From NCBI GenBank assembly GCA_023053545.1, contig JAKZAN010000006.1, positions 10,386,351-10,450,350 on the forward strand: a DNA stretch of 64,000 bases, given 5' to 3'. Position numbers and translations under genes: made by a program. Source of the DNA: Lepidurus packardi (taxonomy: Eukaryota; Arthropoda; Branchiopoda; Notostraca; Triopsidae). The stretch's first letter is position 1. Each line of letters opens with the position of its first letter. Below are positions 16,141 to 52,177 of this stretch, in pieces. The notes below the pieces were generated by a model that was not told the DNA's origin, made no database searches, and saw nothing but the letters and a program-made list of their open reading frames with translations.

Positions 16141-17032
16141 GCAACTTACCACTTTCCTGTCAAGGTCGATCCCGCATCCGAGGGAATTCGCTCCCACTCC
16201 CAGGGGGAACATGATGAACATGGCGCCAGCGGCCCATAAGCAGAGAGTTAGCTCTGTGCTGCGAGTTTGCATTCCTAGGAAGACTAGAGAACCCCCAATT
16301 CCCAGTAGGGCCAAGCGGTTGACACCTCCGAACAGGATGTTAAAGGCGCTTCCAACCGTAGAATGAAGGGCCTTGATTAGCGAGGAGAAAAACCCTCCCA
16401 CGCTGGTCAGGTCCCAATGGTCTGCTCCGGTGATGGCTGCCCTCCGTGCGTTCTTCCAGATTGTGGAAAAGGCTTCGGCCACGTTCGACCCGGGCTGGGT
16501 CCAAAGGTGGACCAAGTTCTCGACCTGGATTGAAGCCTCACCAGGGTCAACCCGAACCTCCGCTTCGAAATCGTCACCGTTGTAAACCAGGTTCGATGTA
16601 AGGACCACTCCTCTCGGTTTCAGCTTGTCTCCAGCTTCAGTTATCCTCACTGTCACGCGACAATTTTCCTCCTTGCCTTCATTCCTGACGGAGAAGACGA
16701 CTGTGTTGTGCTGGGTGCGGCTTGGTTCTTTTACCCAGCGAAACTTCTTTCCTTGGCAAAACCCCATCGTGATTCCCTTGATCCTTAGATTCTCCAGTTG
16801 GAGCCGGCACGTCACGTGGACAGACTCGCTCTGCGCGTAGGAGAGGTCACTTCCGTTAGAAAACCCTCGAAGCGTTTCGACTCCTTCGCGGGCCTTCTCA
16901 AAAGCTCCGCCTTGTTCCTCGGCGACGCTGTAGCGGATTGTGACCCCCGACGCCCCGCCCCAGTCAATGAACCTCTCGAGATTCCTCCATTCGCCATTGC
17001 GATAGCGCCAGGGCTCAGCCAAATCATGGATC
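16141..17032 (-). pseudogene. U1: flavivirus E C-terminal part through NS1 start
   Basis: Second half of the flavivirus envelope protein: end of domain II, domain III (LRIKGITMGFCQGKKF, then EENCRVTVRI for the disulfide), stem and two membrane anchors (LALLGIGGSLVFLGM, LCLWAAGAMFIMFPLG), then GCGIDLDRKVVSCG, the first residues of NS1. E is cut from its N-terminal half by the LTR insertion that begins at 17033. U1 differs from U2-U6 at three residues (SVHV, ITMGF and SSLIK instead of SAHV, ITLGF and SSLTK). Unlike the other copies, this one continues into genuine NS1, not into BEL/Pao. Confidence 0.93.
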
Positions 17033-17059
17033 TGTGGAGAATGGTTTTATGGCCTTCTT

Positions 17060-18919
17060 TTAATGGGTGTACTGAAAGGTACGAATGGACTGGTTCAGGT
17101 GATCCAGTTGAGTTCGCAGTGTTTCAATGGTTGCTCGCAAAGAAGCGTCGGAGGACGTTGGAAGGAGCGCCTCAGTGGGTGTGAGATCAGCTAGTTGGCC
17201 AGTTAAAGTTGCCTCAAAGTCTCGAATCGACTGGTTAGCACGGCGACGTTCCTCGTTGTCCTCTATGTCGTTGATCTCGGCTCCCATACGAGTTCTGGTA
17301 GTGTTCCAGGCGTCTTTTACGTGGTTGGTGATAATCTTAGCATATTCTAGAGTTTTCCCGAGTACCCGTGTCCGTTTTTCCTGGTTGAACCAGGGTGCCA
17401 CAGACTCCTTTCGATATAACATAGCGTAAAGGGTGTCAACTGCGGAGGGTCCAAGAGGCTTCAACGCCTTATACACTTCGTCAATGAAACCAAGGTCTAC
17501 TAAGTAGATTATATCTACGATTCTTGGTTCGGGAAGTGCTGTAGCCATTAGGGCTACCCTAGCCTGGTCCCTGGAGCTGTGTAAATGAGCTCTAACTCCA
17601 GCTATGTTATAAGCTGCCCAGTCAGCCTTTTCCTTTTCATCTAACGATTCCGCGTGGTATAATAGACCCAAATACGCGAATTTTGGGAAATTTGACACCT
17701 GCAGTGCTGGATGTAATGTTGCGGTCATGCCGCGAAACGGCTGGCCATGAATCATGGCCATTGCATTATCCAAGGCTGTCGCCTCTGCCTCAAAGTCAGC
17801 ACTCAAAGGGGTTTGTTCATTTAGGGTTGCTGTACGTACCAACTCTGCGAACGTGAGGGTTGACAAGTGTACGTAGGAAAACACCAGTCTTAAGCCGTCA
17901 AAAACTGCTACTCCCCACGGGGTCACGCCTGGGACTACTTGAAGGGCGTCTAAGGTAATCATCGTATCTTTTGTCACCTCCAAGGAATGCACCATCTGGG
18001 AGTCTCGGCCAACTGTCATTCCCATGGCAGTTGTCACCGACCCGTCTACATCACCGGGGGCTATACCCAACGTTCCGTAAATCAAACGGAATTGTGTCAG
18101 TTCAATGATCTCTTGTCCGGCGTTTGCGGAACACGCTTTATAGCGCCCATACACCTGGGTGGTAATGGTGTTGTCCCTGGTGTACCCAGAAACAAAACAC
18201 ATCATTGCCGTTTTGGCGTAGAATGCCTTAGTGAATAGTATTCTGTTGGCTACGACGGTCCCTCCCTCTGGGGCACCTCTAGATGTTTCAGCAGTTTGAT
18301 AGCTGTACTGTTGGAATAGTCGTCGGAATTCCGGGAGAACAAACGGGAATAAATGAACTAACGTGCTCAGGATTTTCTCAACCTGAGTCACGCTTGGACA
18401 TAGCAGTAAGGCATCTAGCTGGCGGTCGTTGCAGAGGAAAAATATTGATCGTGAGTCGACCAATCCAACATTATTTCCAGGCACTAACGTTCGATTGTAA
18501 CTTTGCATTAGAGCCTCAGGGAGGACAACGGTGCAAAGATCCATTATTGGACAAATGATGCTGGCCAAAGCCGGGATTGCACGCTCTTGGTTACCAACTA
18601 AAAGAACAGCGTCAAACTCTCCATGAGCTGTGCGGGTGGGTCCACTTCTCAACCAGATCGCAAGAAGTTGTGCTGTTCCTTCGTAATCGGGAGGCACCTC
18701 TAGAACCATAGTGTCTATCCAATGTGTGGGGGGTACTACTGTCACGAGAGTCTTAAAATTATATGACCTGATGTAGGCTGACACATCACTCCAGATTTCC
18801 CAAGAAGCTGTAATGCCCCCACCAGGGGCCATCTCCACCGTCGGGTCCCCTGTTCCAGCTCTAATAACATCCTGGAAGTTCCTCAGAACTGTAAAGACTT
18901 GACCATTCGGGCTGTCCAT
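17060..18919 (-). CDS. U1: nucleoprotein-like protein, 619 codons (negative-strand RNA virus type, or atypical Gag)
   Basis: The ORF starts at ATG 18919 in good context (AAAATGG) and reads MDSPNGQVFTVLRNF. It is rich in helical hydrophobic segments, has FPKFAYLGLLYHAESLDE in the last third and ends in a charged coiled coil (ATIETLRTQLDHLNQSI). It has no CCHC knuckle, protease or membrane segment. Length and helical build resemble nucleoproteins of mononega/jingchuviruses (chuvirus-like EVEs are common in arthropods), but I could not confirm homology by eye. Its place right behind an LTR and primer-binding site is where a Gag would be. The frame also stays open upstream through the primer-binding site, without an ATG. 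U1 reads GNQERA and FAELV, where most copies have GKQERA and FAGLV. Confidence 0.6.
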   Translation of the reverse strand: MDSPNGQVFTVLRNFQDVIRAGTGDPTVEMAPGGGITASWEIWSDVSAYIRSYNFKTLVTVVPPTHWIDTMVLEVPPDYEGTAQLLAIWLRSGPTRTAHGEFDAVLLVGNQERAIPALASIICPIMDLCTVVLPEALMQSYNRTLVPGNNVGLVDSRSIFFLCNDRQLDALLLCPSVTQVEKILSTLVHLFPFVLPEFRRLFQQYSYQTAETSRGAPEGGTVVANRILFTKAFYAKTAMMCFVSGYTRDNTITTQVYGRYKACSANAGQEIIELTQFRLIYGTLGIAPGDVDGSVTTAMGMTVGRDSQMVHSLEVTKDTMITLDALQVVPGVTPWGVAVFDGLRLVFSYVHLSTLTFAELVRTATLNEQTPLSADFEAEATALDNAMAMIHGQPFRGMTATLHPALQVSNFPKFAYLGLLYHAESLDEKEKADWAAYNIAGVRAHLHSSRDQARVALMATALPEPRIVDIIYLVDLGFIDEVYKALKPLGPSAVDTLYAMLYRKESVAPWFNQEKRTRVLGKTLEYAKIITNHVKDAWNTTRTRMGAEINDIEDNEERRRANQSIRDFEATLTGQLADLTPTEALLPTSSDASLRATIETLRTQLDHLNQSIRTFQYTH

Positions 18920-18975
18920 TTTGGAAGTAAGGTTGAAAGATAAAATGTTATCTTCAAAAGAAGGCGTGGGTTCAA

Positions 18976-18993
18976 ATCCCACTTCTGACACCA
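18976..18993 (-). promoter_or_regulatory. U1: retroelement primer-binding site complementary to tRNA-Leu 3' end
   Basis: Minus strand TGGTGTCAGAAGTGGGAT is complementary to the CCA end, acceptor strand and T arm of a tRNA of the Leu type. Complementarity continues beyond the usual 18 nt: the plus strand at 18952-18993 reads as a T stem-loop (GTGGGTTCAAATCCCAC), a TTCTGAC acceptor strand and, before it, a small CTTC-AAAA-GAAG hairpin like a long variable arm. Repeated at the same place in U2-U6 (24314-24331, 33177-33194, 38515-38532, 43853-43870, 49191-49208). Confidence 0.75.
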
Positions 18994-18996
18994 AAT

Positions 18997-19510
18997 TGTA
19001 GGAAACTGTTTTGGGCGATTAAATTGTTTTGAGCGGTTGGGCGGAAGGCTGTGAGTTCTTTTTTCGCTCAACGGTAAAATACCGTACAACTTTATTCAGT
19101 ATTTTCGTCGGTACAAGTCGTGTCACTAAGTCAATAATTCACTAGGTCGTCCATATGTTACAAACGTTTTAACAAGATTGAAAACTATAACTTATACTAA
19201 CTGGGCAGAGAGAAAAAGGGAGCGTAACAAATAGCGAGAGACTGAGCGCGACTTCGCGACTGCCTGGCGGGGGAGAACAAGCGTTTATATACATGTTTGG
19301 CGTGGGATCTGCTGAGTGGGCTAAATTATAAACAGAGGGAATGTTCGGATGGACCGGATGCGTGAGAAAGAAATTAGCTAGTGATCTGACGCTCGGCATC
19401 CTGGATATGAGCTGAGAATTATAAGTCGGCGAAATATTGTCAAAATGTGGTCAGCGAAATGTGGTCTTGCTTAGTCATCGGAATTAAGTTTAAAATGATC
19501 GTTCTCCACA
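18997..19510 (-). repeat. U1: LTR (514 bp) with promoter and poly(A) signal
   Basis: Minus-strand borders are TGTGGAGAAC (19510) and TTTCCTACA (18997). A TATA box TATATAAACGC lies at 19291-19281 and is followed by TCAGTC-like initiator sequence. AATAAA is at 19096-19091 before a GTTGTACGG stretch. This U3-R-U5 order, directly upstream of a primer-binding site, supports an LTR. The E(N) frame runs a few codons into it and stops at 19490. Expected role: drives minus-strand transcription of the ORF behind it, then E(C). Confidence 0.8.
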
Positions 19511-21046
19511 GATCCAATTCTTGTTGACGAGAAAAACATTGAAATCTTCTTTTTCCTGGTCCTTCGCGTTGAAGAAAAAACCTAGGAAAGAATTTTCGAA
19601 GCCGTTTCCTGAGTAAGCCCTACAGCTGTAGCCCAAGGTGCCGTATTCTCCGAGACTCACGGTTCCATCACTACTTGAGGCGTCAAAAGAGACCACGTGG
19701 GACACTTCGTCAAAAGCCAACTTCCGGGCCTTTTCGGTCGCCTCCGTGTCGTTCCCCCCGTTCAAGGTTTTCTCGAAGCTCTTGATGGAGTGATTGCTCA
19801 CGAGGACTCCATGGATGTTTAGTCTTATGGTGTACCGGGTTTTTCCCTGATCAACCGAGTACACGGCGAACTTCTTGTCGTATGGTTGCACCTTGACACA
19901 TCCAACAACGGAGCCCTTGGCGAACAATCCACAACCGTTTCCCCAACCTCGGTCCGTGAGGGCGCGCTTGCAAGTCCACCCAGCCTCGTGCTCTTGGGGT
20001 AAAGAGGCCTCTCCTGTGCCGGGACATGCTGCTGAGAACTCGCTTTGCTCCACTTTGCAACTCAGGGCGAACTCCCGTTCAAAAGTCAAACCAGTGTACC
20101 TGGCGGAATCCAGGGTCAAAGCAAGGGTGGGCCTTGAATCGGCCTGGAGGGTCACGCAGGTCTTCCCGTCCAAGACGACATCTATCCATGAGTTTGTTCC
20201 TGCCGACATGATCTCTCGGCTCTCAAGTTGATGACACCCGATGGAAACGGCGGTGGCAACACCGAGGTAAGTTAGTGTTGCAGCTCCAGCCACGGCGTAA
20301 CCCACGGATCCGGTTGTTAGCCATATGAGAGCACCAACGCTACCGAGGAGGATGACGTTGTTCATGGCCCATTTCTCGAGGAGGTGGGCTTGGTCTATGG
20401 TCAGGCGCGAATTCCGGAACTTCTCCATTGATCCGCCCCATGTCACCCGCTGATGGGCTGGGTGCTTGTGCAGACTGCGTTTGACGCGGTCTCGAGCAGT
20501 GCACATGTTGACCTTAAGCCGGACGTGGTTTTCTGCTCCATGGCAGTAGCAGTCCACATCAGCTGGCACCACGTCCTGCTCCAAGATGACGCAGTCGATG
20601 GTAGTCCAGTAGTCACACCCTGACCCGGGCATTAGAACTGAGCGGCAGATGGTGTCGCCAATAGCGAAAAGACCTCTGCCGGCCGTCACTTCCTTGCCAC
20701 CGACGGTGAATTGGTTCGCCACCTGGGTGACTTCGATGGACGCTACAATGGGGATTAGAAGGAGGAGTGCAAAGCCAAGGCTTCCACCTCCTCCTCCGCG
20801 CTTTGGGCTACCCACTAAGCGCTTAATGGTGTTCAAGACACCAATCATTACGTTGATGACGCGGATCACCAACGAGTTGGGGGCTGTGGAGAGCCCCCTT
20901 AGGGTAGCAGGTTTAACAAACCCTACCCTCAAGGACGAGAGGATGTTCCCCACAACCCGTTGGGTTGGGTTTCCTCCACGTCCGGCATTTGGCATGTTTT
21001 TCGACGTGCCACGTCGCGAATTATTGTTAATTTTCGACTGCTTCAT
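19490..21046 (-). pseudogene. U1: flavivirus capsid-prM-E(N) polyprotein segment (endogenous, open)
   Basis: Start at ATG 21046 (MKQSKINNNSRRG). Order: a basic capsid with NILSSLRVG and a central hydrophobic helix, a GSPKRGGGGG junction, a signal-like hydrophobic stretch (FALLLLIPIVAS), pr with several cysteines, a furin-type RVKR, M with two membrane helices, and E from IGCHQLESREI with the fusion loop DRGWGNGCGLFAKGS. The canonical glycine in the GLFGKGS part is alanine here. E ends soon after NKNWI because the LTR element follows; the last codons (GERSF) are LTR-derived. The reading frame is otherwise open. This is a fragment of a classical flavivirus polyprotein, not a functional envelope. 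Confidence 0.95.
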
Positions 21047-21167
21047 AACAAAGCAATCCAACTATTCAAATGACTTCTTGCTGCAAAGCACCTTGAAACT
21101 TGGGAGATTACTCGAAAGTTCCAAGAGGTTGACGTGTTCCAAACTGTGGTTTCACTGACCGCAAATA
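21047..21167 (-). other. U1: flavivirus 5' UTR-like leader
   Basis: 121 nt lie between the BEL/Pao junction (GCCAC) and the capsid ATG, about the length of known flavivirus 5' UTRs. This suggests that the cDNA starts at or very near the viral 5' terminus. No typical AGAA/AGT start was recognised, so a few bases may be missing. Repeated in U2-U6. Confidence 0.5.
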
Positions 21168-22370
21168 GTGGCGATCTGTGAATTGGGGGGCAGCGCACGT
21201 TTGCTTTTCAGGTTGTTAATCTCGTCCTTGAAGCTATGATATTGTACTGCGCGAATGCAGACAATTTCCGCCATTTGGAATTCGCTGGCTTTCAACCACG
21301 TTTGATGGCGCGTTGTGGGATCTCGACATCGCTCAACAAAGCGCAGAACGTAGGCGGCAGCCCGTAGCAGGGTCGTGAAATTCGACTTTCGTTCTACTAG
21401 TTTAACGAGAGGATTAACTTCGAGGGCTGCTACCGCACCAGTCCAATTGGCGGCCGAGATTTCGGGGTCATCCAGTCCGCAACTTACCACTTTCCTGTCA
21501 AGGTCGATCCCGCATCCGAGGGAATTCGCTCCCACTCCCAGGGGGAACATGATGAACATGGCGCCAGCGGCCCATAAGCAGAGAGTTAGCTCTGTGCTGC
21601 GAGTTTGCATTCCTAGGAAGACTAGAGAACCCCCAATTCCCAGTAGGGCCAAGCGGTTGACACCTCCGAACAGGATGTTAAAGGCGCTTCCAACCGTAGA
21701 ATGAAGGGCCTTGGTTAGCGAGGAGAAAAACCCTCCCACGCTGGTCAGGTCCCAATGGTCTGCTCCGGTGATGGCTGCCCTCCGTGCGTTCTTCCAGATT
21801 GTGGAAAAGGCTTCGGCCACGTTCGACCCGGGCTGGGTCCAAAGGTGGACCAAGTTCTCGACCTGGATTGAAGCCTCACCAGGGTCAACCCGAACCTCCG
21901 CTTCGAAATCGTCACCGTTGTAAACCAGGTTCGATGTGAGGACCACTCCTCTCGGTTTCAGCTTGTCTCCAGCTTCAGTTATCCTTACTGTCACGCGACA
22001 ATTTTCCTCCTTGCCTTCATTCCTGACGGAGAAGACGACTGTGTTGTGCTGGGTGCGGCTTGGTTCTTTTACCCAGCGAAACTTCTTTCCTTGGCAAAAC
22101 CCCAGCGTGATTCCCTTGATCCTTAGATTCTCCAGTTGGAGCCGGCACGTCACGTGGGCAGACTCGCTCTGCGCGTAGGAGAGGTCACTTCCGTTAGAAA
22201 ACCCTCGAAGCGTTTCGACTCCTTCGCGGGCCTTCTCAAAAGCTCCGCCTTGTTCCTCGGCGACGCTGTAGCGGATTGTGACCCCCGACGCCCCGCCCCA
22301 GTCAATGAACCTCTCGAGATTCCTCCATTCGCCATTGCGATAGCGCCAGGGCTCAGCCAAATCATGGATC
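21152..22370 (-). pseudogene. U2/U1 join: E(C)-NS1 start fused in frame to BEL/Pao integrase linker
   Basis: A continuous frame of about 400 codons. The flavivirus part (22370-21479, in U2) carries domain III, stem and anchors and ends VVSCG. It then passes without a break into BEL/Pao sequence (21478-21173, in U1): LLRAAAYVLRFVERCR, an FQMAEIVCIRAVQYHSF helix and RALPPNSQIAT, the linker between RNase H and integrase. The frame stops at 21152 inside the next flavivirus leader. The fusion is a product of the tandem duplication breakpoint and is repeated at every unit border. No function should be assumed. Confidence 0.9.
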
Positions 22371-22397
22371 TGTGGAGAATGGTTTTATGGCCTTCTT

Positions 22398-24257
22398 TTA
22401 ATGGGTGTACTGAAAGGTACGAATGGACTGGTTCAGGTGATCCAGTTGAGTTCGCAGTGTTTCAATGGTTGCTCGCAAAGAAGCGTCGGAGGACGTTGGA
22501 AGGAGCGCCTCAGTGGGTGTGAGATCAGCTAGTTGGCCAGTTAAAGTTGCCTCAAAGTCTCGAATCGACTGGTTAGCACGGCGACGTTCCTCGTTGTCCT
22601 CTATGTCGTTGATCTCGGCTCCCATACGAGTTCTGGTAGTGTTCCAGGCGTCTTTTACGTGGTTGGTGATAATCTTAGCATATTCTAGAGTTTTCCCGAG
22701 TACCCGTGTCCGTTTTTCCTGGTTGAACCAGGGTGCCACAGACTCCTTTCGATATAACATAGCGTAAAGGGTGTCAACTGCGGAGGGTCCAAGAGGCTTC
22801 AACGCCTTATACACTTCGTCAATGAAACCAAGGTCTACTAAGTAGATTATATCTACGATTCTTGGTTCGGGAAGTGCTGTAGCCATTAGCGCTACCCTAG
22901 CCTGGTCCCTGGAGCTGTGTAAATGAGCTCTAACTCCAGCTATGTTATAAGCTGCCCAGTCAGCCTTTTCCTTTTCATCTAACGATTCCGCGTGGTATAA
23001 TAGACCCAAATACGCGAATTTTGGGAAATTTGACACCTGCAGTGCTGGATGTAATGTTGCGGTCATGCCGCGAAACGGCTGGCCATGAATCATGGCCATT
23101 GCATTATCCAAGGCTGTCGCCTCTGCCTCAAAGTCAGCACTCAAAGGGGTTTGTTCATTTAGGGTTGCTGTACGTACCAACCCTGCGAACGTGAGGGTTG
23201 ACAAGTGTACGTAGGAAAACACCAGTCTTAAGCCGTCAAAAACTGCTACTCCCCACGGGGTCACGCCTGGGACTACTTGAAGGGCGTCTAAGGTAATCAT
23301 CGTATCTTTTGTCACCTCCAAGGAATGCACCATCTGGGAGTCTCGGCCAACTGTCATTCCCATGGCAGTTGTCACCGACCCGTCTACATCACCGGGGGCT
23401 ATACCCAACGTTCCGTAAATCAAACGGAATTGTGTCAGTTCAATGATCTCTTGTCCGGCGTTTGCGGAACACGCTTTATAGCGCCCATACACCTGGGTGG
23501 TAATGGTGTTGTCCCTGGTGTACCCAGAAACAAAACACATCATTGCCGTTTTGGCGTAGAATGCCTTAGTGAATAGTATTCTGTTGGCTACGACGGTCCC
23601 TCCCTCTGGGGCACCTCTAGATGTTTCAGCAGTTTGATAGCTGTACTGTTGGAATAGTCGTCGGAATTCCGGGAGAACAAACGGGAATAAATGAACTAAC
23701 GTGCTCAGGATTTTCTCAACCTGAGTCACGCTTGGACATAGCAGTAAGGCATCTAGCTGGCGGTCGTTGCAGAGGAAAAATATTGATCGTGAGTCGACCA
23801 ATCCAACATTATTTCCAGGCACTAACGTTCGATTGTAACTTTGCATTAGAGCCTCAGGGAGGACAACGGTGCAAAGATCCATTATTGGACAAATGATGCT
23901 GGCCAAAGCCGGGATTGCACGCTCTTGTTTACCAACTAAAAGAACAGCGTCAAACTCTCCATGAGCTGTGCGGGTGGGTCCACTTCTCAACCAGATCGCA
24001 AGAAGTTGTGCTGTTCCTTCGTAATCGGGAGGCACCTCTAGAACCATAGTGTCTATCCAATGTGTGGGGGGTACTACTGTCACGAGAGTCTTAAAATTAT
24101 ATGACCTGATGTAGGCTGACACATCACTCCAGATTTCCCAAGAAGCTGTAATGCCCCCACCAGGGGCCATCTCCACCGTCGGGTCCCCTGTTCCAGCTCT
24201 AATAACATCCTGGAAGTTCCTCAGAACTGTAAAGACTTGACCATTCGGGCTGTCCAT
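22398..24257 (-). CDS. U2: nucleoprotein-like protein
   Basis: Copy of the 619-codon ORF, fully open, in the LTR insertion 22371-24848. It differs from U1 at two visible residues (GKQERA, FAGLV). Same upstream primer-binding site and LTR (24335-24848). Confidence 0.6.
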   Translation of the reverse strand: MDSPNGQVFTVLRNFQDVIRAGTGDPTVEMAPGGGITASWEIWSDVSAYIRSYNFKTLVTVVPPTHWIDTMVLEVPPDYEGTAQLLAIWLRSGPTRTAHGEFDAVLLVGKQERAIPALASIICPIMDLCTVVLPEALMQSYNRTLVPGNNVGLVDSRSIFFLCNDRQLDALLLCPSVTQVEKILSTLVHLFPFVLPEFRRLFQQYSYQTAETSRGAPEGGTVVANRILFTKAFYAKTAMMCFVSGYTRDNTITTQVYGRYKACSANAGQEIIELTQFRLIYGTLGIAPGDVDGSVTTAMGMTVGRDSQMVHSLEVTKDTMITLDALQVVPGVTPWGVAVFDGLRLVFSYVHLSTLTFAGLVRTATLNEQTPLSADFEAEATALDNAMAMIHGQPFRGMTATLHPALQVSNFPKFAYLGLLYHAESLDEKEKADWAAYNIAGVRAHLHSSRDQARVALMATALPEPRIVDIIYLVDLGFIDEVYKALKPLGPSAVDTLYAMLYRKESVAPWFNQEKRTRVLGKTLEYAKIITNHVKDAWNTTRTRMGAEINDIEDNEERRRANQSIRDFEATLTGQLADLTPTEALLPTSSDASLRATIETLRTQLDHLNQSIRTFQYTH

Positions 24258-24334
24258 TTTGGAAGTAAGGTTGAAAGATAAAATGTTATCTTCAAAAGAA
24301 GGCGTGGGTTCAAATCCCACTTCTGACACCAAAT

Positions 24335-24848
24335 TGTAGGAAACTGTTTTGGGCGATTAAATTGTTTTGAGCGGTTGGGCGGAAGGCTGTGAGTTCTTTT
24401 TTCGCTCAACGGTAAAATACCGTACAACTTTATTCAGTATTTTCGTCGGTACAAGTCGTGTCACTAAGTCAATAATTCACTAGGTCGTCCATATGTTACA
24501 AACGTTTTAACAAGATTGAAAACTATAACTTATACTAACTGGGCAGAGAGAAAAAGGGAGCGTAACAAATAGCGAGAGACTGAGCGCGACTTCGCGACTG
24601 CCTGGCGGGGGAGAACAAGCGTTTATATACATGTTTGGCGTGGGATCTGCTGAGTGGGCTAAATTATAAACAGAGGGAATGTTCGGATGGACCGGATGCG
24701 TGAGAAAGAAATTAGCTAGTGATCTGACGCTCGGCATCCTGGATATGAGCTGAGAATTATAAGTCGGCGAAATATTGTCAAAATGTGGTCAGCGAAATGT
24801 GGTCTTGCTTAGTCATCGGAATTAAGTTTAAAATGATCGTTCTCCACA
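24335..24848 (-). repeat. U2: LTR
   Basis: Copy of the 514-bp LTR with TATA box and AATAAA at the same internal positions; essentially identical to U1. Confidence 0.8.
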
Positions 24849-41909: not shown

Positions 41910-41936
41910 TGTGGAGAATGGTTTTATGGCCTTCTT

Positions 41937-43796
41937 TTAATGGGTGTACTGAAAGGTACGAATGGACTGGTTCAGGTGATCCAGTTGAGTTCGCAGTGTT
42001 TCAATGGTTGCTCGCAAAGAAGCGTCGGAGGACGTTGGAAGGAGCGCCTCAGTGGGTGTGAGATCAGCTAGTTGGCCAGTTAAAGTTGCCTCAAAGTCTC
42101 GAATCGACTGGTTAGCACGGCGACGTTCCTCGTTGTCCTCTATGTCGTTGATCTCGGCTCCCATACGAGTTCTGGTAGTGTTCCAGGCGTCTTTTACGTG
42201 GTTGGTGATAATCTTAGCATATTCTAGAGTTTTCCCGAGTACCCGTGTCCGTTTTTCCTGGTTGAACCAGGGTGCCACAGACTCCTTTCGATATAACATA
42301 GCGTAAAGGGTGTCAACTGCGGAGGGTCCAAGAGGCTTCAACGCCTTATACACTTCGTCAATGAAACCAAGGTCTACTAAGTAGATTATATCTACGATTC
42401 TTGGTTCGGGAAGTGCTGTAGCCATTAGGGCTACCCTAGCCTGGTCCCTGGAGCTGTGTAAATGAGCTCTAACTCCAGCTATGTTATAAGCTGCCCAGTC
42501 AGCCTTTTCCTTTTCATCTAACGATTCCGCGTGGTATAATAGACCCAAATACGCGAATTTTGGGAAATTTGACACCTGCAGTGCTGGATGTAATGTTGCG
42601 GTCATGCCGCGAAACGGCTGGCCATGAATCATGGCCATTGCATTATCCAAGGCTGTCGCCTCTGCCTCAAAGTCAGCACTCAAAGGGGTTTGTTCATTTA
42701 GGGTTGCTGTACGTACCAACCCTGCGAACGTGAGGGTTGACAAGTGTACGTAGGAAAACACCAGTCTTAAGCCGTCAAAAACTGCTACTCCCCACGGGGT
42801 CACGCCTGGGACTACTTGAAGGGCGTCTAAGGTAATCATCGTATCTTTTGTCACCTCCAAGGAATGCACCATCTGGGAGTCTCGGCCAACTGTCATTCCC
42901 ATGGCAGTTGTCACCGACCCGTCTACATCACCGGGGGCTATACCCAACGTTCCGTAAATCAAACGGAATTGTGTCAGTTCAATGATCTCTTGTCCGGCGT
43001 TTGCGGAACACGCTTTATAGCGCCCATACACCTGGGTGGTAATGGTGTTGTCCCTGGTGTACCCAGAAACAAAACACATCATTGCCGTTTTGGCGTAGAA
43101 TGCCTTAGTGAATAGTATTCTGTTGGCTACGACGGTCCCTCCCTCTGGGGCACCTCTAGATGTTTCAGCAGTTTGATAGCTGTACTGTTGGAATAGTCGT
43201 CGGAATTCCGGGAGAACAAACGGGAATAAATGAACTAACGTGCTCAGGATTTTCTCAACCTGAGTCACGCTTGGACATAGCAGTAAGGCATCTAGCTGGC
43301 GGTCGTTGCAGAGGAAAAATATTGATCGTGAGTCGACCAATCCAACATTATTTCCAGGCACTAACGTTCGATTGTAACTTTGCATTAGAGCCTCAGGGAG
43401 GACAACGGTGCAAAGATCCATTATTGGACAAATGATGCTGGCCAAAGCCGGGATTGCACGCTCTTGTTTACCAACTAAAAGAACAGCGTCAAACTCTCCA
43501 TGAGCTGTGCGGGTGGGTCCACTTCTCAACCAGATCGCAAGAAGTTGTGCTGTTCCTTCGTAATCGGGAGGCACCTCTAGAACCATAGTGTCTATCCAAT
43601 GTGTGGGGGGTACTACTGTCACGAGAGTCTTAAAATTATATGACCTGATGTAGGCTGACACATCACTCCAGATTTCCCAAGAAGCTGTAATGCCCCCACC
43701 AGGGGCCATCTCCACCGTCGGGTCCCCTGTTCCAGCTCTAATAACATCCTGGAAGTTCCTCAGAACTGTAAAGACTTGACCATTCGGGCTGTCCAT
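41937..43796 (-). CDS. U5: nucleoprotein-like protein
   Basis: Open copy, same protein as U2 and U3. Confidence 0.6.
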   Translation of the reverse strand: MDSPNGQVFTVLRNFQDVIRAGTGDPTVEMAPGGGITASWEIWSDVSAYIRSYNFKTLVTVVPPTHWIDTMVLEVPPDYEGTAQLLAIWLRSGPTRTAHGEFDAVLLVGKQERAIPALASIICPIMDLCTVVLPEALMQSYNRTLVPGNNVGLVDSRSIFFLCNDRQLDALLLCPSVTQVEKILSTLVHLFPFVLPEFRRLFQQYSYQTAETSRGAPEGGTVVANRILFTKAFYAKTAMMCFVSGYTRDNTITTQVYGRYKACSANAGQEIIELTQFRLIYGTLGIAPGDVDGSVTTAMGMTVGRDSQMVHSLEVTKDTMITLDALQVVPGVTPWGVAVFDGLRLVFSYVHLSTLTFAGLVRTATLNEQTPLSADFEAEATALDNAMAMIHGQPFRGMTATLHPALQVSNFPKFAYLGLLYHAESLDEKEKADWAAYNIAGVRAHLHSSRDQARVALMATALPEPRIVDIIYLVDLGFIDEVYKALKPLGPSAVDTLYAMLYRKESVAPWFNQEKRTRVLGKTLEYAKIITNHVKDAWNTTRTRMGAEINDIEDNEERRRANQSIRDFEATLTGQLADLTPTEALLPTSSDASLRATIETLRTQLDHLNQSIRTFQYTH

Positions 43797-43873
43797 TTTG
43801 GAAGTAAGGTTGAAAGATAAAATGTTATCTTCAAAAGAAGGCGTGGGTTCAAATCCCACTTCTGACACCAAAT

Positions 43874-44387
43874 TGTAGGAAACTGTTTTGGGCGATTAAA
43901 TTGTTTTGAGCGGTTGGGCGGAAGGCTGTGAGTTCTTTTTTCGCTCAACGGTAAAATACCGTACAACTTTATTCAGTATTTTCGTCGGTACAAGTCGTGT
44001 CACTAAGTCAATAATTCACTAGGTCGTCCATATGTTACAAACGTTTTAACAAGATTGAAAACTATAACTTATACTAACTGGGCAGAGAGAAAAAGGGAGC
44101 GTAACAAATAGCGAGAGACTGAGCGCGACTTCGCGACTGCCTGGCGGGGGAGAACAAGCGTTTATATACATGTTTGGCGTGGGATCTGCTGAGTGGGCTA
44201 AATTATAAACAGAGGGAATGTTCGGATGGACCGGATGCGTGAGAAAGAAATTAGCTAGTGATCTGACGCTCGGCATCCTGGATATGAGCTGAGAATTATA
44301 AGTCGGCGAAATATTGTCAAAATGTGGTCAGCGAAATGTGGTCTTGCTTAGTCATCGGAATGAAGTTTAAAATGATCGTTCTCCACA
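43874..44387 (-). repeat. U5: LTR
   Basis: LTR copy with the GGAATGAAG variant shared with U4. Confidence 0.8.
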
Positions 44388-45923
44388 GATCCAATTCTTG
44401 TTGACGAGAAAAACATTGAAATCTTCTTTTTCCTGGTCCTTCGCGTTGAAGAAAAAACCTAGGAAAGAATTTTCGAAGCCGTTTCCTGAGTAAGCCCTAC
44501 AGCTGTAGCCCAAGGTGCCGTATTCTCCGAGACTCACGGTTCCATCACTACTTGAGGCGTCAAAAGAGACCACGTGGGACACTTCGTCAAAAGCCAACTT
44601 CCGGGCCTTTTCGGTCGCCTCCGTGTCGTTCCCCCCGTTCAAGGTTTTCTCGAAGCTCTTGATGGAGTGATTGCTCACGAGGACTCCATGGATGTTTAGT
44701 CTTATGGTGTACCGGGTTTTTCCCTGATCAACCGAGTACACGGCGAACTTCTTGTCGTATGGTTGCACCTTGACACATCCAACAACGGAGCCCTTGGCGA
44801 ACAATCCACAACCGTTTCCCCAACCTCGGTCCGTGAGGGCGCGCTTGCAAGTCCACCCAGCCTCGTGCTCTTGGGGTAAAGAGGCCTCTCCTGTGCCGGG
44901 ACATGCTGCTGAGAACTCGCTTTGCTCCACTTTGCAACTCAGGGCGAACTCCCGTTCAAAAGTCAAACCAGTGTACCTGGCGGAATCCAGGGTCAAAGCA
45001 AGGGTGGGCCTTGAATCGGCCTGGAGGGTCACGCAGGTCTTCCCGTCCAAGACGACATCTATCCATGAGTTTGTTCCTGCCGACATGATCTCTCGGCTCT
45101 CAAGTTGATGACACCCGATGGAAACGGCGGTGGCAACACCGAGGTAAGTTAGTGTTGCAGCTCCAGCCACGGCGTAACCCACGGATCCGGTTGTTAGCCA
45201 TATGAGAGCACCAACGCTACCGAGGAGGATGACGTTGTTCATGGCCCATTTCTCGAGGAGGTGGGCTTGGTCTATGGTCAGGCGCGAATTCCGGAACTTC
45301 TCCATTGATCCGCCCCATGTCACCCGCTGATGGGCTGGGTGCTTGTGCAGACTGCGTTTGACGCGGTCTCGAGCAGTGCACATGTTGACCTTAAGCCGGA
45401 CGTGGTTTTCTGCTCCATGGCAGTAGCAGTCCACATCGGCTGGCACCACGTCCTGCTCCAAGATGACGCAGTCGATGGTAGTCCAGTAGTCACACCCTGA
45501 CCCGGGCATTAGAACTGAGCGGCAGATGGTGTCGCCAATAGCGAAAAGACCTCTGCCGGCCGTCACTTCCTTGCCACCGACGGTGAATTGGTTCGCCACC
45601 TGGGTGACTTCGATGGACGCTACAATGGGGATTAGAAGGAGGAGTGCAAAGCCAAGGCTTCCACCTCCTCCTCCGCGCTTTGGGCTCCCCACTAAGCGCT
45701 TAATGGTGTTCAAGACACCAATCATTACGTTGATGACGCGGATCACCAACGAGTTGGGGGCTGTGGAGAGCCCCCTTAGGGTAGCAGGTTTAACAAACCC
45801 TACCCTCAAGGACGAGAGGATGTTCCCCACAACCCGTTGGGTTGGGTTTCCTCCACGTCCGGCATTTGGCATGTTTTTCGACGTGCCACGTCGCGAATTA
45901 TTGTTAATTTTCGACTGCTTCAT
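44367..45923 (-). pseudogene. U5: flavivirus capsid-prM-E(N) segment
   Basis: Open copy, protein as in U1; shares the GGGCTCCCCAC base variant with U4 and U6. Confidence 0.95.
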
Positions 45924-46028
45924 AACAAAGCAATCCAACTATTCAAATGACTTCTTGCTGCAAAGCACCTTGAAACTTGGGAGATTACTCGAAAGTTCCA
46001 AGAGGTTGACGTGTTCCAAACTGTGGTT

Positions 46029-47247
46029 TCACTGACCGCAAATAGTGGCGATCTGTGAATTGGGGGGCAGCGCACGTTTGCTTTTCAGGTTGTTAATCTC
46101 GTCCTTGAAGCTATGATATTGTACTGCGCGAATGCAGACAATTTCCGCCATTTGGAATTCGCTGGCCTTCAACCACGTTTGATGGCGCGTTGTGGGATCT
46201 CGACATCGCTCAACAAAGCGCAGAACGTAGGCGGCAGCCCGTAGCAGGGTCGTGAAATTCGACTTTCGTTCTACTAGTTTAACGAGAGGATTAACTTCGA
46301 GGGCTGCTACCGCACCAGTCCAATTGGCGGCCGAGATTTCGGGGTCATCCAGTCCGCAACTTACCACTTTCCTGTCAAGGTCGATCCCGCATCCGAGGGA
46401 ATTCGCTCCCACTCCCAGGGGGAACATGATGAACATGGCGCCAGCGGCCCATAAGCAGAGAGTTAGCTCTGTGCTGCGAGTTTGCATTCCTAGGAAGACT
46501 AGAGAACCCCCAATTCCCAGTAGGGCCAAGCGGTTGACACCTCCGAACAGGATGTTAAAGGCGCTTCCAACCGTAGAATGAAGGGCCTTGGTTAGCGAGG
46601 AGAAAAACCCTCCCACGCTGGTCAGGTCCCAATGGTCTGCTCCGGTGATGGCTGCCCTCCGTGCGTTCTTCCAGATTGTGGAAAAGGCTTCGGCCACGTT
46701 CGACCCGGGCTGGGTCCAAAGGTGGACCAAGTTCTCGACCTGGATTGAAGCCTCACCAGGGTCAACCCGAACCTCCGCTTCGAAATCGTCACCGTTGTAA
46801 ACCAGGTTCGATGTGAGGACCACTCCTCTCGGTTTCAGCTTGTCTCCAGCTTCAGTTATCCTTACTGTCACGCGACAATTTTCCTCCTTGCCTTCATTCC
46901 TGACGGAGAAGACGACTGTGTTGTGCTGGGTGCGGCTTGGTTCTTTTACCCAGCGAAACTTCTTTCCTTGGCAAAACCCCAGCGTGATTCCCTTGATCCT
47001 TAGATTCTCCAGTTGGAGCCGGCACGTCACGTGGGCAGACTCGCTCTGCGCGTAGGAGAGGTCACTTCCGTTAGAAAACCCTCGAAGCGTTTCGACTCCT
47101 TCGAGGGCCTTCTCAAAAGCTCCGCCTTGTTCCTCGGCGACGCTGTAGCGGATTGTGACCCCCGACGCCCCGCCCCAGTCAATGAACCTCTCGAGATTCC
47201 TCCATTCGCCATTGCGATAGCGCCAGGGCTCAGCCAAATCATGGATC
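46029..47247 (-). pseudogene. U6/U5 join: E(C)-NS1 start fused to BEL/Pao linker
   Basis: Open fusion frame with the KALEG variant, as in U5. Border at 46355/46356. Confidence 0.9.
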
Positions 47248-47274
47248 TGTGGAGAATGGTTTTATGGCCTTCTT

Positions 47275-49134
47275 TTAATGGGTGTACTGAAAGGTACGAA
47301 TGGACTGGTTCAGGTGATCCAGTTGAGTTCGCAGTGTTTCAATGGTTGCTCGCAAAGAAGCGTCGGAGGACGTTGGAAGGAGCGCCTCAGTGGGTGTGAG
47401 ATCAGCTAGTTGGCCAGTTAAAGTTGCCTCAAAGTCTCGAATCGACTGGTTAGCACGGCGACGTTCCTCGTTGTCCTCTATGTCGTTGATCTCGGCTCCC
47501 ATACGAGTTCTGGTAGTGTTCCAGGCGTCTTTTACGTGGTTGGTGATAATCTTAGCATATTCTAGAGTTTTCCCGAGTACCCGTGTCCGTTTTTCCTGGT
47601 TGAACCAGGGTGCCACAGACTCCTTTCGATATAACATAGCGTAAAGGGTGTCAACTGCGGAGGGTCCAAGAGGCTTCAACGCCTTATACACTTCGTCAAT
47701 GAAACCAAGGTCTACTAAGTAGATTATATCTACGATTCTTGGTTCGGGAAGTGCTGTAGCCATTAGGGCTACCCTAGCCTGGTCCCTGGAGCTGTGTAAA
47801 TGAGCTCTAACTCCAGCTATGTTATAAGCTGCCCAGTCAGCCTTTTCCTTTTCATCTAACGATTCCGCGTGGTATAATAGACCCAAATACGCGAATTTTG
47901 GGAAATTTGACACCTGCAGTGCTGGATGTAATGTTGCGGTCATGCCGCGAAACGGCTGGCCATGAATCATGGCCATTGCATTATCCAAGGCTGTCGCCTC
48001 TGCCTCAAAGTCAGCACTCAAAGGGGTTTGTTCATTTAGGGTTGCTGTACGTACCAACCCTGCGAACGTGAGGGTTGACAAGTGTACGTAGGAAAACACC
48101 AGTCTTAAGCCGTCAAAAACTGCTACTCCCCACGGGGTCACGCCTGGGACTACTTGAAGGGCGTCTAAGGTAATCATCGTATCTTTTGTCACCTCCAAGG
48201 AATGCACCATCTGGGAGTCTCGGCCAACTGTCATTCCCATGGCAGTTGTCACCGACCCGTCTACATCACCGGGGGCTATACCCAACGTTCCGTAAATCAA
48301 ACGGAATTGTGTCAGTTCAATGATCTCTTGTCCGGCGTTTGCGGAACACGCTTTATAGCGCCCATACACCTGGGTGGTAATGGTGTTGTCCCTGGTGTAC
48401 CCAGAAACAAAACACATCATTGCCGTTTTGGCGTAGAATGCCTTAGTGAATAGTATTCTGTTGGCTACGACGGTCCCTCCCTCTGGGGCACCTCTAGATG
48501 TTTCAGCAGTTTGATAGCTGTACTGTTGGAATAGTCGTCGGAATTCCGGGAGAACAAACGGGAATAAATGAACTAACGTGCTCAGGATTTTCTCAACCTG
48601 AGTCACGCTTGGACATAGCAGTAAGGCATCTAGCTGGCGGTCGTTGCAGAGGAAAAATATTGATCGTGAGTCGACCAATCCAACATTATTTCCAGGCACT
48701 AACGTTCGATTGTAACTTTGCATTAGAGCCTCAGGGAGGACAACGGTGCAAAGATCCATTATTGGACAAATGATGCTGGCCAAAGCCGGGATTGCACGCT
48801 CTTGGTTACCAACTAAAAGAACAGCGTCAAACTCTCCATGAGCTGTGCGGGTGGGTCCACTTCTCAACCAGATCGCAAGAAGTTGTGCTGTTCCTTCGTA
48901 ATCGGGAGGCACCTCTAGAACCATAGTGTCTATCCAATGTGTGGGGGGTACTACTGTCACGAGAGTCTTAAAATTATATGACCTGATGTAGGCTGACACA
49001 TCACTCCAGATTTCCCAAGAAGCTGTAATGCCCCCACCAGGGGCCATCTCCACCGTCGGGTCCCCTGTTCCAGCTCTAATAACATCCTGGAAGTTCCTCA
49101 GAACTGTAAAGACTTGACCATTCGGGCTGTCCAT
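47275..49134 (-). CDS. U6: nucleoprotein-like protein
   Basis: Open copy that reads GNQERA as in U1 but FAGLV as in U2-U5, so it combines states of both ends of the array. Confidence 0.6.
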   Translation of the reverse strand: MDSPNGQVFTVLRNFQDVIRAGTGDPTVEMAPGGGITASWEIWSDVSAYIRSYNFKTLVTVVPPTHWIDTMVLEVPPDYEGTAQLLAIWLRSGPTRTAHGEFDAVLLVGNQERAIPALASIICPIMDLCTVVLPEALMQSYNRTLVPGNNVGLVDSRSIFFLCNDRQLDALLLCPSVTQVEKILSTLVHLFPFVLPEFRRLFQQYSYQTAETSRGAPEGGTVVANRILFTKAFYAKTAMMCFVSGYTRDNTITTQVYGRYKACSANAGQEIIELTQFRLIYGTLGIAPGDVDGSVTTAMGMTVGRDSQMVHSLEVTKDTMITLDALQVVPGVTPWGVAVFDGLRLVFSYVHLSTLTFAGLVRTATLNEQTPLSADFEAEATALDNAMAMIHGQPFRGMTATLHPALQVSNFPKFAYLGLLYHAESLDEKEKADWAAYNIAGVRAHLHSSRDQARVALMATALPEPRIVDIIYLVDLGFIDEVYKALKPLGPSAVDTLYAMLYRKESVAPWFNQEKRTRVLGKTLEYAKIITNHVKDAWNTTRTRMGAEINDIEDNEERRRANQSIRDFEATLTGQLADLTPTEALLPTSSDASLRATIETLRTQLDHLNQSIRTFQYTH

Positions 49135-49211
49135 TTTGGAAGTAAGGTTGAAAGATAAAATGTTATCTTCAAAAGAAGGCGTGGGTTCAAATCCCACTTC
49201 TGACACCAAAT

Positions 49212-49725
49212 TGTAGGAAACTGTTTTGGGCGATTAAATTGTTTTGAGCGGTTGGGCGGAAGGCTGTGAGTTCTTTTTTCGCTCAACGGTAAAATACCGT
49301 ACAACTTTATTCAGTATTTTCGTCGGTACAAGTCGTGTCACTAAGTCAATAATTCACTAGGTCGTCCATATGTTACAAACGTTTTAACAAGATTGAAAAC
49401 TATAACTTATACTAACTGGGCAGAGAGAAAAAGGGAGCGTAACAAATAGCGAGAGACTGAGCGCGACTTCGCGACTGCCTGGCGGGGGAGAACAAGCGTT
49501 TATATACATGTTTGGCGTGGGATCTGCTGAGTGGGCTAAATTATAAACAGAGGGAATGTTCGGATGGACCGGATGCGTGAGAAAGAAATTAGCTAGTGAT
49601 CTGACGCTCGGCATCCTGGATATGAGCTGAGAATTATAAGTCGGCGAAATATTGTCAAAATGTGGTCAGCGAAATGTGGTCTTGCTTAGTCATCGGAATT
49701 AAGTTTAAAATGATCGTTCTCCACA
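49212..49725 (-). repeat. U6: LTR
   Basis: LTR copy with the GGAATTAAG form, as in U1-U3. Confidence 0.8.
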
Positions 49726-51261
49726 GATCCAATTCTTGTTGACGAGAAAAACATTGAAATCTTCTTTTTCCTGGTCCTTCGCGTTGAAGAAAAAACCTAG
49801 GAAAGAATTTTCGAAGCCGTTTCCTGAGTAAGCCCTACAGCTGTAGCCCAAGGTGCCGTATTCTCCGAGACTCACGGTTCCATCACTACTTGAGGCGTCA
49901 AAAGAGACCACGTGGGACACTTCGTCAAAAGCCAACTTCCGGGCCTTTTCGGTCGCCTCCGTGTCGTTCCCCCCGTTCAAGGTTTTCTCGAAGCTCTTGA
50001 TGGAGTGATTGCTCACGAGGACTCCATGGATGTTTAGTCTTATGGTGTACCGGGTTTTTCCCTGATCAACCGAGTACACGGCGAACTTCTTGTCGTATGG
50101 TTGCACCTTGACACATCCAACAACGGAGCCCTTGGCGAACAATCCACAACCGTTTCCCCAACCTCGGTCCGTGAGGGCGCGCTTGCAAGTCCACCCAGCC
50201 TCGTGCTCTTGGGGTAAAGAGGCCTCTCCTGTGCCGGGACATGCTGCTGAGAACTCGCTTTGCTCCACTTTGCAACTCAGGGCGAACTCCCGTTCAAAAG
50301 TCAAACCAGTGTACCTGGCGGAATCCAGGGTCAAAGCAAGGGTGGGCCTTGAATCGGCCTGGAGGGTCACGCAGGTCTTCCCGTCCAAGACGACATCTAT
50401 CCATGAGTTTGTTCCTGCCGACATGATCTCTCGGCTCTCAAGTTGATGACACCCGAGGGAAACGGCGGTGGCAACACCGAGGTAAGTTAGTGTTGCAGCT
50501 CCAGCCACGGCGTAACCCACGGATCCGGTTGTTAGCCATATGAGAGCACCAACGCTACCGAGGAGGATGACGTTGTTCATGGCCCATTTCTCGAGGAGGT
50601 GGGCTTGGTCTATGGTCAGGCGCGAATTCCGGAACTTCTCCATTGATCCGCCCCATGTCACCCGCTGATGGGCTGGGTGCTTGTGCGGACTGCGTTTGAC
50701 GCGGTCTCGAGCAGTGCACATGTTGACCTTAAGCCGGACGTGGTTTTCTGCTCCATGGCAGTAGCAGTCCACATCGGCTGGCACCACGTCCTGCTCCAAG
50801 ATGACGCAGTCGATGGTAGTCCAGTAGTCACACCCTGACCCGGGCATTAGAACTGAGCGGCAGATGGTGTCGCCAATAGTGAAAAGACCTCTGCCGGCCG
50901 TCACTTCCTTGCCACCGACGGTGAATTGGTTCGCCACCTGGGGGACTTCGATGGACGCTACAATGGGGATTAGAAGGAGGAGTGCAAAGCCAAGGCTTCC
51001 ACCTCCTCCTCCGCGCTTTGGGCTCCCCACTAAGCGCTTAATGGTGTTCAAGACACCAATCATTACGTTGATGACGCGGATCACCAACGAGTTGGGGGCT
51101 GTGGAGAGCCCCCTTAGGGTAGCAGGTTTAACAAACCCTACCCTCAAGGACGAGAGGATGTTCCCCACAACCCGTTGGGTTGGGTTTCCTCCACGTCCGG
51201 CATTTGGCATGTTTTTCGACGTGCCACGTCGCGAATTATTGTTAATTTTCGACTGCTTCAT
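49705..51261 (-). pseudogene. U6: flavivirus capsid-prM-E(N) segment, most divergent copy
   Basis: Open, but with four amino-acid changes against all other copies: T to P in SIEVPQV, A to T in GLFTIGD, L to P directly after the RVKRS site and I to L in AVSLGCHQ. It lies at the outer end of the array. Confidence 0.95.
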
Positions 51262-51366
51262 AACAAAGCAATCCAACTATTCAAATGACTTCTTGCTGCA
51301 AAGCACCTTGAAACTTGGGAGATTACTCGAAAGTTCCAAGAGGTTGACGTGTTCCAAACTGTGGTT

Positions 51367-52177
51367 TCACTGACCGCAAATAGTGGCGATCTGTGAATTG
51401 GGGGGCAGCGCACGTTTGCTTTTCAGGTTGTTAATCTCGTCCTTGAAGCTATGATATTGTACTGCGCGAATGCAGACAATTTCCGCCATTTGGAATTCGC
51501 TGGCCTTCAACCACGTTTGATGGCGCGTTGTGGGATCTCGACATCGCTCAACAAAGCGCAGAACGTTGGCGGCAGCCCGTAGCAGGGTCGTGAAATTCGA
51601 CTTTCGTTCTAGTAGTTTAACGAGAGGATTAACTTCGAGGGCTGCTACCGCACCAGTCCAATTGGCGGCCGAGATTTCGGGGTCATCCAGTCCGCAACTT
51701 ACCACTTTCCTGTCAAGGTCGATCCCGCATCCGAGGGAATTCGCTCCCACTCCCAGGGGGAACATGATGAACATGGCGCCAGCGGCCCATAAGCAGAGAG
51801 TTAGCTCTGTGCTGCGAGTTTGCATTCCTAGGAAGACTAGAGAACCCCCAATTCCCAGTAGGGCCAAGCGGTTGACACCTCCGAACAGGATGTTAAAGGC
51901 GCTTCCAACCGTAGAATGAAGGGCCTTGGTTAGCGAGGAGAAAAACCCTCCCACGCTGGTCAGGTCCCAATGGTCTGCTCCGGTGATGGCTGCCCTCCGT
52001 GCGTTCTCCGTGCGAAGACGACTGTGTTGTGCTGGGTGCGGCTTGGTTCTTTTACCCAGCGAAACTTCTTTCCTTGGCAAAACCCCAGCGTGATTCCCTT
52101 GATCCTTAGATTCTCCAGTTGGAGCCGGCACGTCACGTGGGCAGACTCGCTCTGCGCGTAGGAGAGGTCACTTCCGT
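51367..52177 (-). pseudogene. U7 (partial) E(C)-NS1 start with internal deletion, fused to BEL/Pao linker of U6
   Basis: The array ends here. The E(C) part begins abruptly at 52177 within domain II/III sequence (SDLSYAQSESAHVTC), then loses about 230 bp between domain III and the stem. The deletion junction near 52007-52014 carries a short filler resembling the nearby CCGTGCG. The deletion shifts the frame. The rest reads through anchors, NS1 start and BEL/Pao linker, with private changes (LLERKS, AAANVL). Confidence 0.88.

Follow-up and report, generated by a model that had tools for sequence, protein, structure and literature searches.

A tandem array of viral and retrotransposon pieces

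The window, a stretch of 64,000 nucleotides from Lepidurus packardi (C5:10386351-10450350), contains a tandem array in which every full unit combines pieces of a flavivirus, of a BEL/Pao retrotransposon, of a Ty3/gypsy-type element and of a second virus. It was compared with itself and with the assembly searched (108.6 Mb in 344 contigs). Among single-domain entries, the arginine kinase exons of this genome are closest to arthropod arginine kinases, several of which are crustacean, in keeping with an arthropod of probable crustacean affinity. On the minus strand, a unit runs from the flavivirus 5' region through a putative capsid, prM and the first part of E into a long terminal repeat (LTR), a tRNA-like primer-binding region and an open reading frame (ORF) that we call N-like. 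After it come the remainder of E, the beginning of NS1 and 304 bp of BEL/Pao. The LTR, the primer-binding region and the N-like ORF form one insert, here called LTR-N. Unit 3 serves as the reference for the unit parts:

13637..14869, minus strand: downstream half of a BEL/Pao element (integrase H2C2, DUF5641; Pfam), with target duplication GCCAC at 14865-14869
14870..16137, minus strand: single-copy 3' part of the flavivirus, NS1 into probable NS2A (Flavi_NS1 3.8e-43; at least one frame break)
16138..21475, minus strand: unit 1, the most diverged from units 2-5
21476..30338, minus strand: unit 2, broken by a DNA transposon
25298..28819, plus strand: PIF/Harbinger-like DNA transposon, 3522 bp, with 329-bp terminal inverted repeats and target duplication TGA
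30339..35676, minus strand: unit 3
30339..31229, minus strand: C-terminal half of E, from the end of domain II through domain III and the stem to the anchor, with the first NS1 residues (Pfam)
31234..33711, minus strand: LTR-N insert, 2478 bp, splitting E, with target duplication GATC at 31230-31233 and 33712-33715
31261..33120, minus strand: N-like ORF of 619 codons, counted from the viral ATG; the primer-binding site and the 5' leader supply about 25 further in-frame codons
33152..33194, minus strand: extended primer-binding site, 43 nt complementary to tRNA-Leu, which contributes to plus-strand Rfam tRNA calls
33198..33711, minus strand: single LTR of Ty3/gypsy type, with many further genomic copies
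33691..35262, minus strand: putative capsid and prM with the N-terminal part of E, closed by a stop within the LTR
35263..35368, minus strand: probable flavivirus 5' non-coding region, reaching the insertion edge
35369..35672, minus strand: 304-bp BEL/Pao fragment, found at every unit junction and ending in target duplication GCCAC at 35369-35373
35677..41014, minus strand: unit 4
41015..46352, minus strand: unit 5
46353..51690, minus strand: unit 6
51691..52177, minus strand: first part of copy 7, which has lost 238 bp and is interrupted by a transposon at 52177

Self-BLAST and column counts place the unit starts at 16138, 21476, 30339, 35677, 41015, 46353 and 51691. The initial annotation described near-identical minus-strand units spaced by exactly 5,338 bp. 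Identity and strand are borne out by these comparisons, and the spacing holds for five of the six intervals. The remaining interval measures 8863 because of the 3522-bp transposon at 25298-28819, which had been missed. All six full copies lie within about 0.3% divergence, with 20 variable columns in 5338 and zero indels. Any two of copies 2-5 are 1-4 differences apart, against 9-16 between copy 1 and any other copy and 8-16 for copy 6. Because the interior copies differ least and the end copies most, we read the array as recently amplified and homogenised, in agreement with what had been suggested before.

The count of six full units and a partial seventh also stands, but the seventh is only cut inside the window. 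Its parts at 51691-52007 and 52014-52177 continue about 22.8 kb to the right, outside the window and past other transposons, at C5:10461337-10463178 (L035). Copy 7 has no LTR-N insert and is older than the six near-identical units. From position 2180 of L035, the 5' flank of its flavivirus piece is unlike BEL, and this flank starts at the edge where the other copies pass into BEL. The window has 0 N letters, hence there is no scaffold gap within this part of the array.

A flavivirus fragment in a BEL/Pao element

The outer layer of the unit is an endogenous flavivirus element with an Orthoflavivirus-like structural region in the order capsid-prM-E-NS1, with E and NS1 above curated cut-offs. 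In 33691..35262, E is recognised by Pfam (Flavi_glycoprot 4.9e-33) and by a flavivirus polyprotein in PDB (1.2e-39). In the next unit's ORF that matches 30339..31229, Pfam finds Flavi_E_stem (1.9e-19) and Flavi_glycop_C (1.1e-7). The prM match (Flavi_propep 0.0015, 18.9 bits) falls under the cut-off of 27.6, and the capsid is tentatively named by its position. The segment beyond NS1 is probably NS2A, and 35263..35368 is probably the viral 5' end. The protein set returned 0 homologues of the C-prM-E piece; its candidates were limited to proteins of similar length, so polyproteins could not appear.

The chromosomal setting of this piece can be read on both sides. BEL/Pao sequence flanks it on the 3' side and at the unit junctions, and the leftmost copy extends through NS1 toward NS2A into the downstream, integrase half of BEL/Pao. 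Over 264 bp of that half, a BEL copy without interruption (L046) is 99.6% identical. In L046 the 304-bp piece and the left flank form one continuous stretch; around the flavivirus piece, GCCAC is doubled. Hence, flavivirus cDNA entered a BEL element. Where NS1 meets BEL at the unit junctions there is a 4-bp microhomology (CGGA), and this junction appears to be the breakpoint of the tandem duplication.

An LTR joined to a viral gene inside E

The inner layer is LTR-N, and copy 7 preserves the site as it was before the insertion. In L035 E is unbroken, and a 594-codon open frame spans the empty site. The initial annotation had taken the unit to be chimeric; the empty site and the target duplications show two successive insertions instead. 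LTR-N is not a complete LTR provirus, as it carries an LTR at one end only. The 5' end of the N transcript follows immediately after the 43-nt tRNA stretch. At the far end, the 3' non-coding region of N is followed by 9 nt that equal an inverted LTR terminus.

The length of the tRNA match sets LTR-N apart within its family. It covers 43 nt here and stops at 19-22 nt in the four other members read (L033, L007, L008, L016). A pattern search allowing up to 3 mismatches found the 43-nt stretch in the six units and in one other place, with 2 mismatches. Rfam calls this other place a tRNA with an intron, which we assigned to Leu(CAA) by eye. Rfam also reports a plus-strand tRNA in each unit (18923-18990 and five more) at 30.3 bits, with a cut-off of 29. 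These calls are the copied tRNA-Leu stretch plus the N leader, not a gene.

We agree with the flavivirus, LTR and nucleoprotein-like parts named at first. They were confirmed for E and NS1 (Pfam), for E again (PDB) and for the LTR, but the nucleoprotein-like part has no sequence match. Neither Pfam, PDB, a set of 5.8 billion proteins nor viral contigs returned a nucleoprotein homologue of the N ORF, and its structure model is poor (predicted local distance difference test score, pLDDT, of 37). The name rests on a related locus at C1, where the first gene stands before P and G with gene-junction motifs that we take to be mononegaviral. There, the G protein matches Monjiviricetes_fusion (5e-33). 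We call the first gene N because of this match and the gene order N-P-G. P has no Pfam match and is named by position only.

The source family of the LTR

The LTR belongs to a family with at least 36 further genomic match rows, three of them tiny fragments (among the best 40 of 91 candidates scored). Six pairs of rows lie on the same strand, 8.6-8.8 kb apart. One member, read in three pieces, has paired LTRs of the TG...CA form (TGTGG...TACA), a tRNA primer-binding site and a 4-bp target duplication (GATT), as expected of an LTR element. Its gag has a zinc-knuckle with a weak Pfam score below the cut-off. This full-length member carries reverse transcriptase, RNase H and integrase in gypsy order (C1:2824300-2826900), which makes the family Ty3/gypsy type.

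A further capture at C1 and C33

A related virus is present as a tandem array of N, P and G at C1 10.627-10.648 Mb, where the third of three copies is interrupted, and on the unplaced contig C33, which holds a single copy. At every G end read there, G meets the primer-binding site and U5-R of the LTR family found in LTR-N, in antisense orientation to N, P and G. The arrangement is 5' LTR and primer-binding site, antisense G-P-N, R-U5 and leader, part of gag, and 3' LTR. The left edge at C1 runs through the primer-binding site and the gag leader into the 3' LTR. On C33, a full LTR forms the right edge, as predicted beforehand under a circle model. Both outer duplications read GTTT, and 2 of 465 sites distinguish the two LTRs. 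We infer the link between C1 and C33 from the matching array sequence and the target duplication.

One failed reverse transcription would explain this arrangement. A circle followed by homologous recombination was considered for C1; its right edge was found, but a single failed reverse transcription predicts the same edge and we do not claim circles. A reading of the C1 edge as exactly 18 nt of tRNA is weakened by microhomology with a related virus. The direct repeats of R-U5 and primer-binding site that flank the viral piece would be a ready substrate for unequal crossing-over. Within the third C1 unit, a DNA transposon (L045, about 568-3225; hAT-like by eye only) breaks P.

We read C1/C33 and LTR-N as two independent captures by one retroelement family.

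A model of failed strong-stop transfer

The unit is best interpreted as one virus fossil lying inside another, which in turn lies inside a retrotransposon, and not as a chimeric virus. We give a probability of about three in four to the full account: a flavivirus in BEL/Pao, a strong-stop-derived LTR-N in E, a unit spread to six copies, and neutrality after capture. In a first step, flavivirus cDNA, from the 5' end into NS2A, entered BEL/Pao with a 5-bp target duplication; its junctions are visible. A tandem duplication would then have joined NS1 to the upstream BEL at the 4-bp microhomology, a junction that can be read and whose mechanism is conjectural. In the third step, the 2478-bp LTR-N DNA entered E in one copy with a 4-bp target duplication, as the empty site in copy 7 shows. 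Finally, unequal crossing-over or gene conversion probably multiplied the unit carrying LTR-N until there were six of it.

The origin of LTR-N would follow from established retroviral steps. Synthesis of plus-strand strong-stop DNA (U3-R-U5-primer-binding site) would have overrun the usual 18 nt and taken in 43 nt of the tRNA-Leu primer. This DNA would then have moved to the cDNA of a viral N mRNA and not to its own cDNA, and the integrase of the element would have inserted the product. We read LTR-N and C1/C33 as failed strong-stop transfers inserted by integrase because of the junctions, the tRNA tail and the target duplications. The duplications are GATC at LTR-N, GATT at the ordinary family member and GTTT at C1/C33; the flavivirus piece has GCCAC.

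Several observations weigh against this account. The distinct 5' flank of copy 7, which starts at the insertion edge, is not predicted by simple duplication. The 9-nt inverted LTR end of LTR-N is without proven origin. The tRNA gene has 2 mismatches in the variable loop relative to the 43-nt stretch, and ARAGORN, with bacterial settings, gave no call for this intron-containing gene. No donor was found among the best 40 of 91 candidates, where the nearest LTR relatives outside the array are 96-97% identical, and no LTR-N insertion was seen elsewhere. C1 meets a 100-N gap inside a unit, and C33 begins near the same unit position. A related virus at C5 11.36 Mb suggests a microhomology of at most about 6 nt at the C1 junction of primer-binding site and G, therefore the 18-nt edge at C1 is not exact.

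Transposons that interrupt the array

The transposon at 25298-28819 has a DDE_Tnp_4 transposase, a MADF protein as its MADF/Myb partner, inverted repeats and a 3-bp duplication. The MADF protein is encoded on the opposite strand to the transposase. The inverted ends are 99% alike, thus the insertion is recent. Its TGA duplication departs from TWA, which we take to be commoner for PIF/Harbinger elements.

The segment from 52178 to C5:10461336, about 22.8 kb, lies in copy 7 and is bounded by inverted ends and a 7-bp duplication. The transposon that cuts copy 7 at 52177 shows inverted ends and target duplication CTTCCGT (by eye). The part of the segment inside the window holds DDE_Tnp_4, Myb/SANT, DDE_1 and MULE-like ORFs, and hence consists of nested transposons.

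Other viral loci in the genome

Six queries (N, C-prM-E, NS1, L, NS5, G) returned about 11 viral places. Six of these are arrays of at least four copies, with six different periods, and they stem from the flavivirus group and from N, P-G and G of the Monjiviricetes group. The arrays come first, followed by the other places:

C5 10.40 Mb: period 5338, the array of the window
C5 11.14 Mb: period 3721; ten places, at least two decayed
C5 11.36 Mb (C5:11362646-11376690, L052): period 2684; P-G copies, five long and one partial
C1/C33: period 5245; N, P and G
C2 0.79 Mb (C2:785596-796195) and C23 (L018): period about 1760; N fragments, five and three full copies
C3 1.96 Mb (C3:1957445-1985615; L050, L051): period about 1635; G fragment, at least 15 long copies and 2 partial ones, 430-codon frames
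C2: two L copies 7.7 kb apart, one with a stop
C5 9.60-9.69 Mb (C5:9596722-9693373): E/NS1/N complex
C2 and C5: single NS5 pieces, the one on C5 with a stop
C5 11.38 Mb: partial G with a stop

The arrays seem to have used differing routes. The 11.14-Mb unit has no LTR of the Ty3/gypsy-type family, and copies with stops have decayed at C5:11164544-11168618. The 11.36-Mb unit closes with about 30 A, and at the junction read the next copy begins with no sequence in between. The C2 N unit has a poly(A) run beside a tRNA-Ser(AGA) sequence ending in CCA, as if copied from a mature tRNA. Outside the arrays, the complex at C5:9596722-9693373 has E, NS1 and N pieces on opposite strands, with E pieces about 93 kb apart, and resembles a large inverted duplication. 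The NS5 piece at C2:1342474-1343787 is a single copy in a 1719-codon open frame.

In at least two arrays the repeat unit matches a landmark of the cDNA: the primer-binding site joined to G at C1, and poly(A) joined to the next copy start at C5 11.36 Mb. The genome may thus systematically turn RNA-virus cDNA into tandem arrays, with cDNA concatemers, circles or strong-stop direct repeats seeding amplification and copy number kept for RNA-based antiviral memory. We regard this as conceivable rather than probable. A rough and weak control is given by the BEL fragment (5 further match rows) and the LTR family, neither of which forms regular arrays among the matches listed.

Selection before and after capture

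Between C5 and C1, N differs at 94, 47 and 357 sites by codon position. The nonsynonymous divergence (dN) between loci is 0.05-0.10; the synonymous divergence (dS) was not computable and is presumably saturated. Such a third-position excess between loci is expected from selection during viral life.

Within arrays, the few changes over three arrays give no sign of purifying selection among copies. The viral ORFs of the six full units in the window have 11 nonsynonymous and 5 synonymous changes, counted without the four of 20 variable columns that lie in the LTR or BEL. The counts are 5 to 3 for N at C2/C23 (pN/pS 0.53; five of eight full copies, four distinct) and 14 to 4 for G at C3 (pN/pS 1.10; 8 of 15 long copies). 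Summed over the three arrays, this amounts to 30 nonsynonymous and 12 synonymous changes and 0 stops, with low power. Two copies of the C5 11.36-Mb array are identical.

The copy differences fit neutrality, and a function at the protein level is not supported. Because the within-array changes look neutral, in small counts, the open frames need no more than youth. Nor is there support for the idea that the locus multiplies two sets of viral-like proteins: LTR-N breaks E, the unit junction truncates NS1, and the few differences between copies look neutral. After capture, the locus most likely evolves neutrally at the protein level. If it has a role, this would be as RNA, as a putative small-RNA precursor.

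Alternative explanations

The arrays could be sources of small RNAs (PIWI-interacting RNAs, piRNAs), with copy number favoured for the RNA. The window is rich in transposons. All of the listed matches to E and NS1 (C5 9.60-11.17 Mb) lie within a 1.7-Mb part of C5 together with one of the two NS5 places; yet arrays also occur on C1, C2 and C3. In Aedes, the available part of one report has viral integrations clustering in piRNA loci (PMC5497376). We hold this explanation only tentatively.

Domestication, in which viral N, E or G protein or its dosage protects the host, would account for six arrays with different viral genes and mostly open frames. However, the counts of 11:5, 5:3 and 14:4, small as they are, do not favour it, E is split in the window array, and the copies at C5:11164544-11168618 are decayed with stops. 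We consider it unlikely.

Recombination at the DNA level could have joined the LTR, the tRNA piece and N without reverse transcription, and microhomologies do occur at several junctions. The target duplication lies exactly around LTR-N, though, the LTR begins at its true end, and the tRNA match continues from the primer-binding site. Reverse transcription followed by integrase is the simplest explanation of this combination, which leaves purely DNA-level joining improbable.

LTR-N might instead be a family of non-autonomous retrotransposons that moves as a unit, with N as a gag-like gene. N is indeed open, in frame and in gag position behind an LTR and primer-binding site, and the LTR family is abundant. 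But LTR-N has only one LTR, and 6 of the 25 N matches are the units of the window array. Among the other 19, the flanks read at C1/C33 and C2/C23 show no LTR-N in this orientation, and at C5 9.650 and 9.685 Mb no LTR row lies nearby among the best 40 of 91 candidates. A mobile LTR-N family is thus very unlikely.

An assembly artefact is highly improbable: a gap and unplaced 25-kb contigs at sister arrays do reveal trouble for the assembler, but the window has no N letters, 20 variable columns, a transposon in one copy only and differing end copies.

Relation to known viral integrations

The integrated non-retroviral RNA virus sequences (NIRVS) of Aedes resemble this locus in the available part of the report, with flavivirus and rhabdovirus pieces near gypsy and BEL elements and with nearby duplicates (PMC5497376). 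Template switching by retrotransposon reverse transcriptase was proposed there (PMC5497376). The Aedes association appears to be drawn from occupancy and flanking full-length elements, whereas here the junctions and the empty site are read base by base; the terms 'target site', 'primer binding' and 'tandem' are absent from the part of the main text available (PMC5497376). A nodavirus RNA-dependent RNA polymerase in a Bursaphelenchus BEL/Pao element is likewise an RNA-virus gene in a retroelement with a primer-binding site, there between LTRs (PMC5177903). As far as the available text goes, that case is a single BEL/Pao copy, whereas we find a Ty3/gypsy type, two captures and arrays; its main text, to the same extent, lacks 'target site', 'tandem' and 'template switch' (PMC5177903).

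Anakin, a mosquito chuvirus glycoprotein in BEL/Pao, also places a negative-strand virus gene in an LTR element (PMC7642597). In the accessible portion of that report it forms many copies of potentially active elements, whereas each captured piece here was seen at one site only (PMC7642597). Endogenous viral elements of crustaceans share the host group, the several virus groups and the duplications after insertion, of which the available part of the source gives seven events (PMC4573495).

Among the papers listed by literature searches, we recognised none as reporting tandem arrays or a strong-stop origin of viral elements; this absence is not proven. In mouse cells, an RNA virus (lymphocytic choriomeningitis virus, LCMV) was reportedly joined to an LTR element (intracisternal A particle, IAP) by copy choice and then integrated, in a vertebrate, experimental, single-copy case. 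New here are the empty site with target duplications, a junction that carries an extended tRNA stretch, another capture by the Ty3/gypsy-type family at C1/C33, and the tendency of this genome to keep viral pieces as tandem arrays.

The entry of non-retroviral RNA viruses into animal genomes is mostly inferred from nearby transposons. In L. packardi, two captures by one family are legible at their junctions, from the LTR start, primer-binding site and tRNA to the viral gene ends, the target duplications and the empty site. These junctions name a testable step, the mis-transfer of strong-stop DNA. That the viral pieces are held as tandem arrays is unusual, and raises the testable question of how copy number relates to small-RNA immunity in crustaceans.

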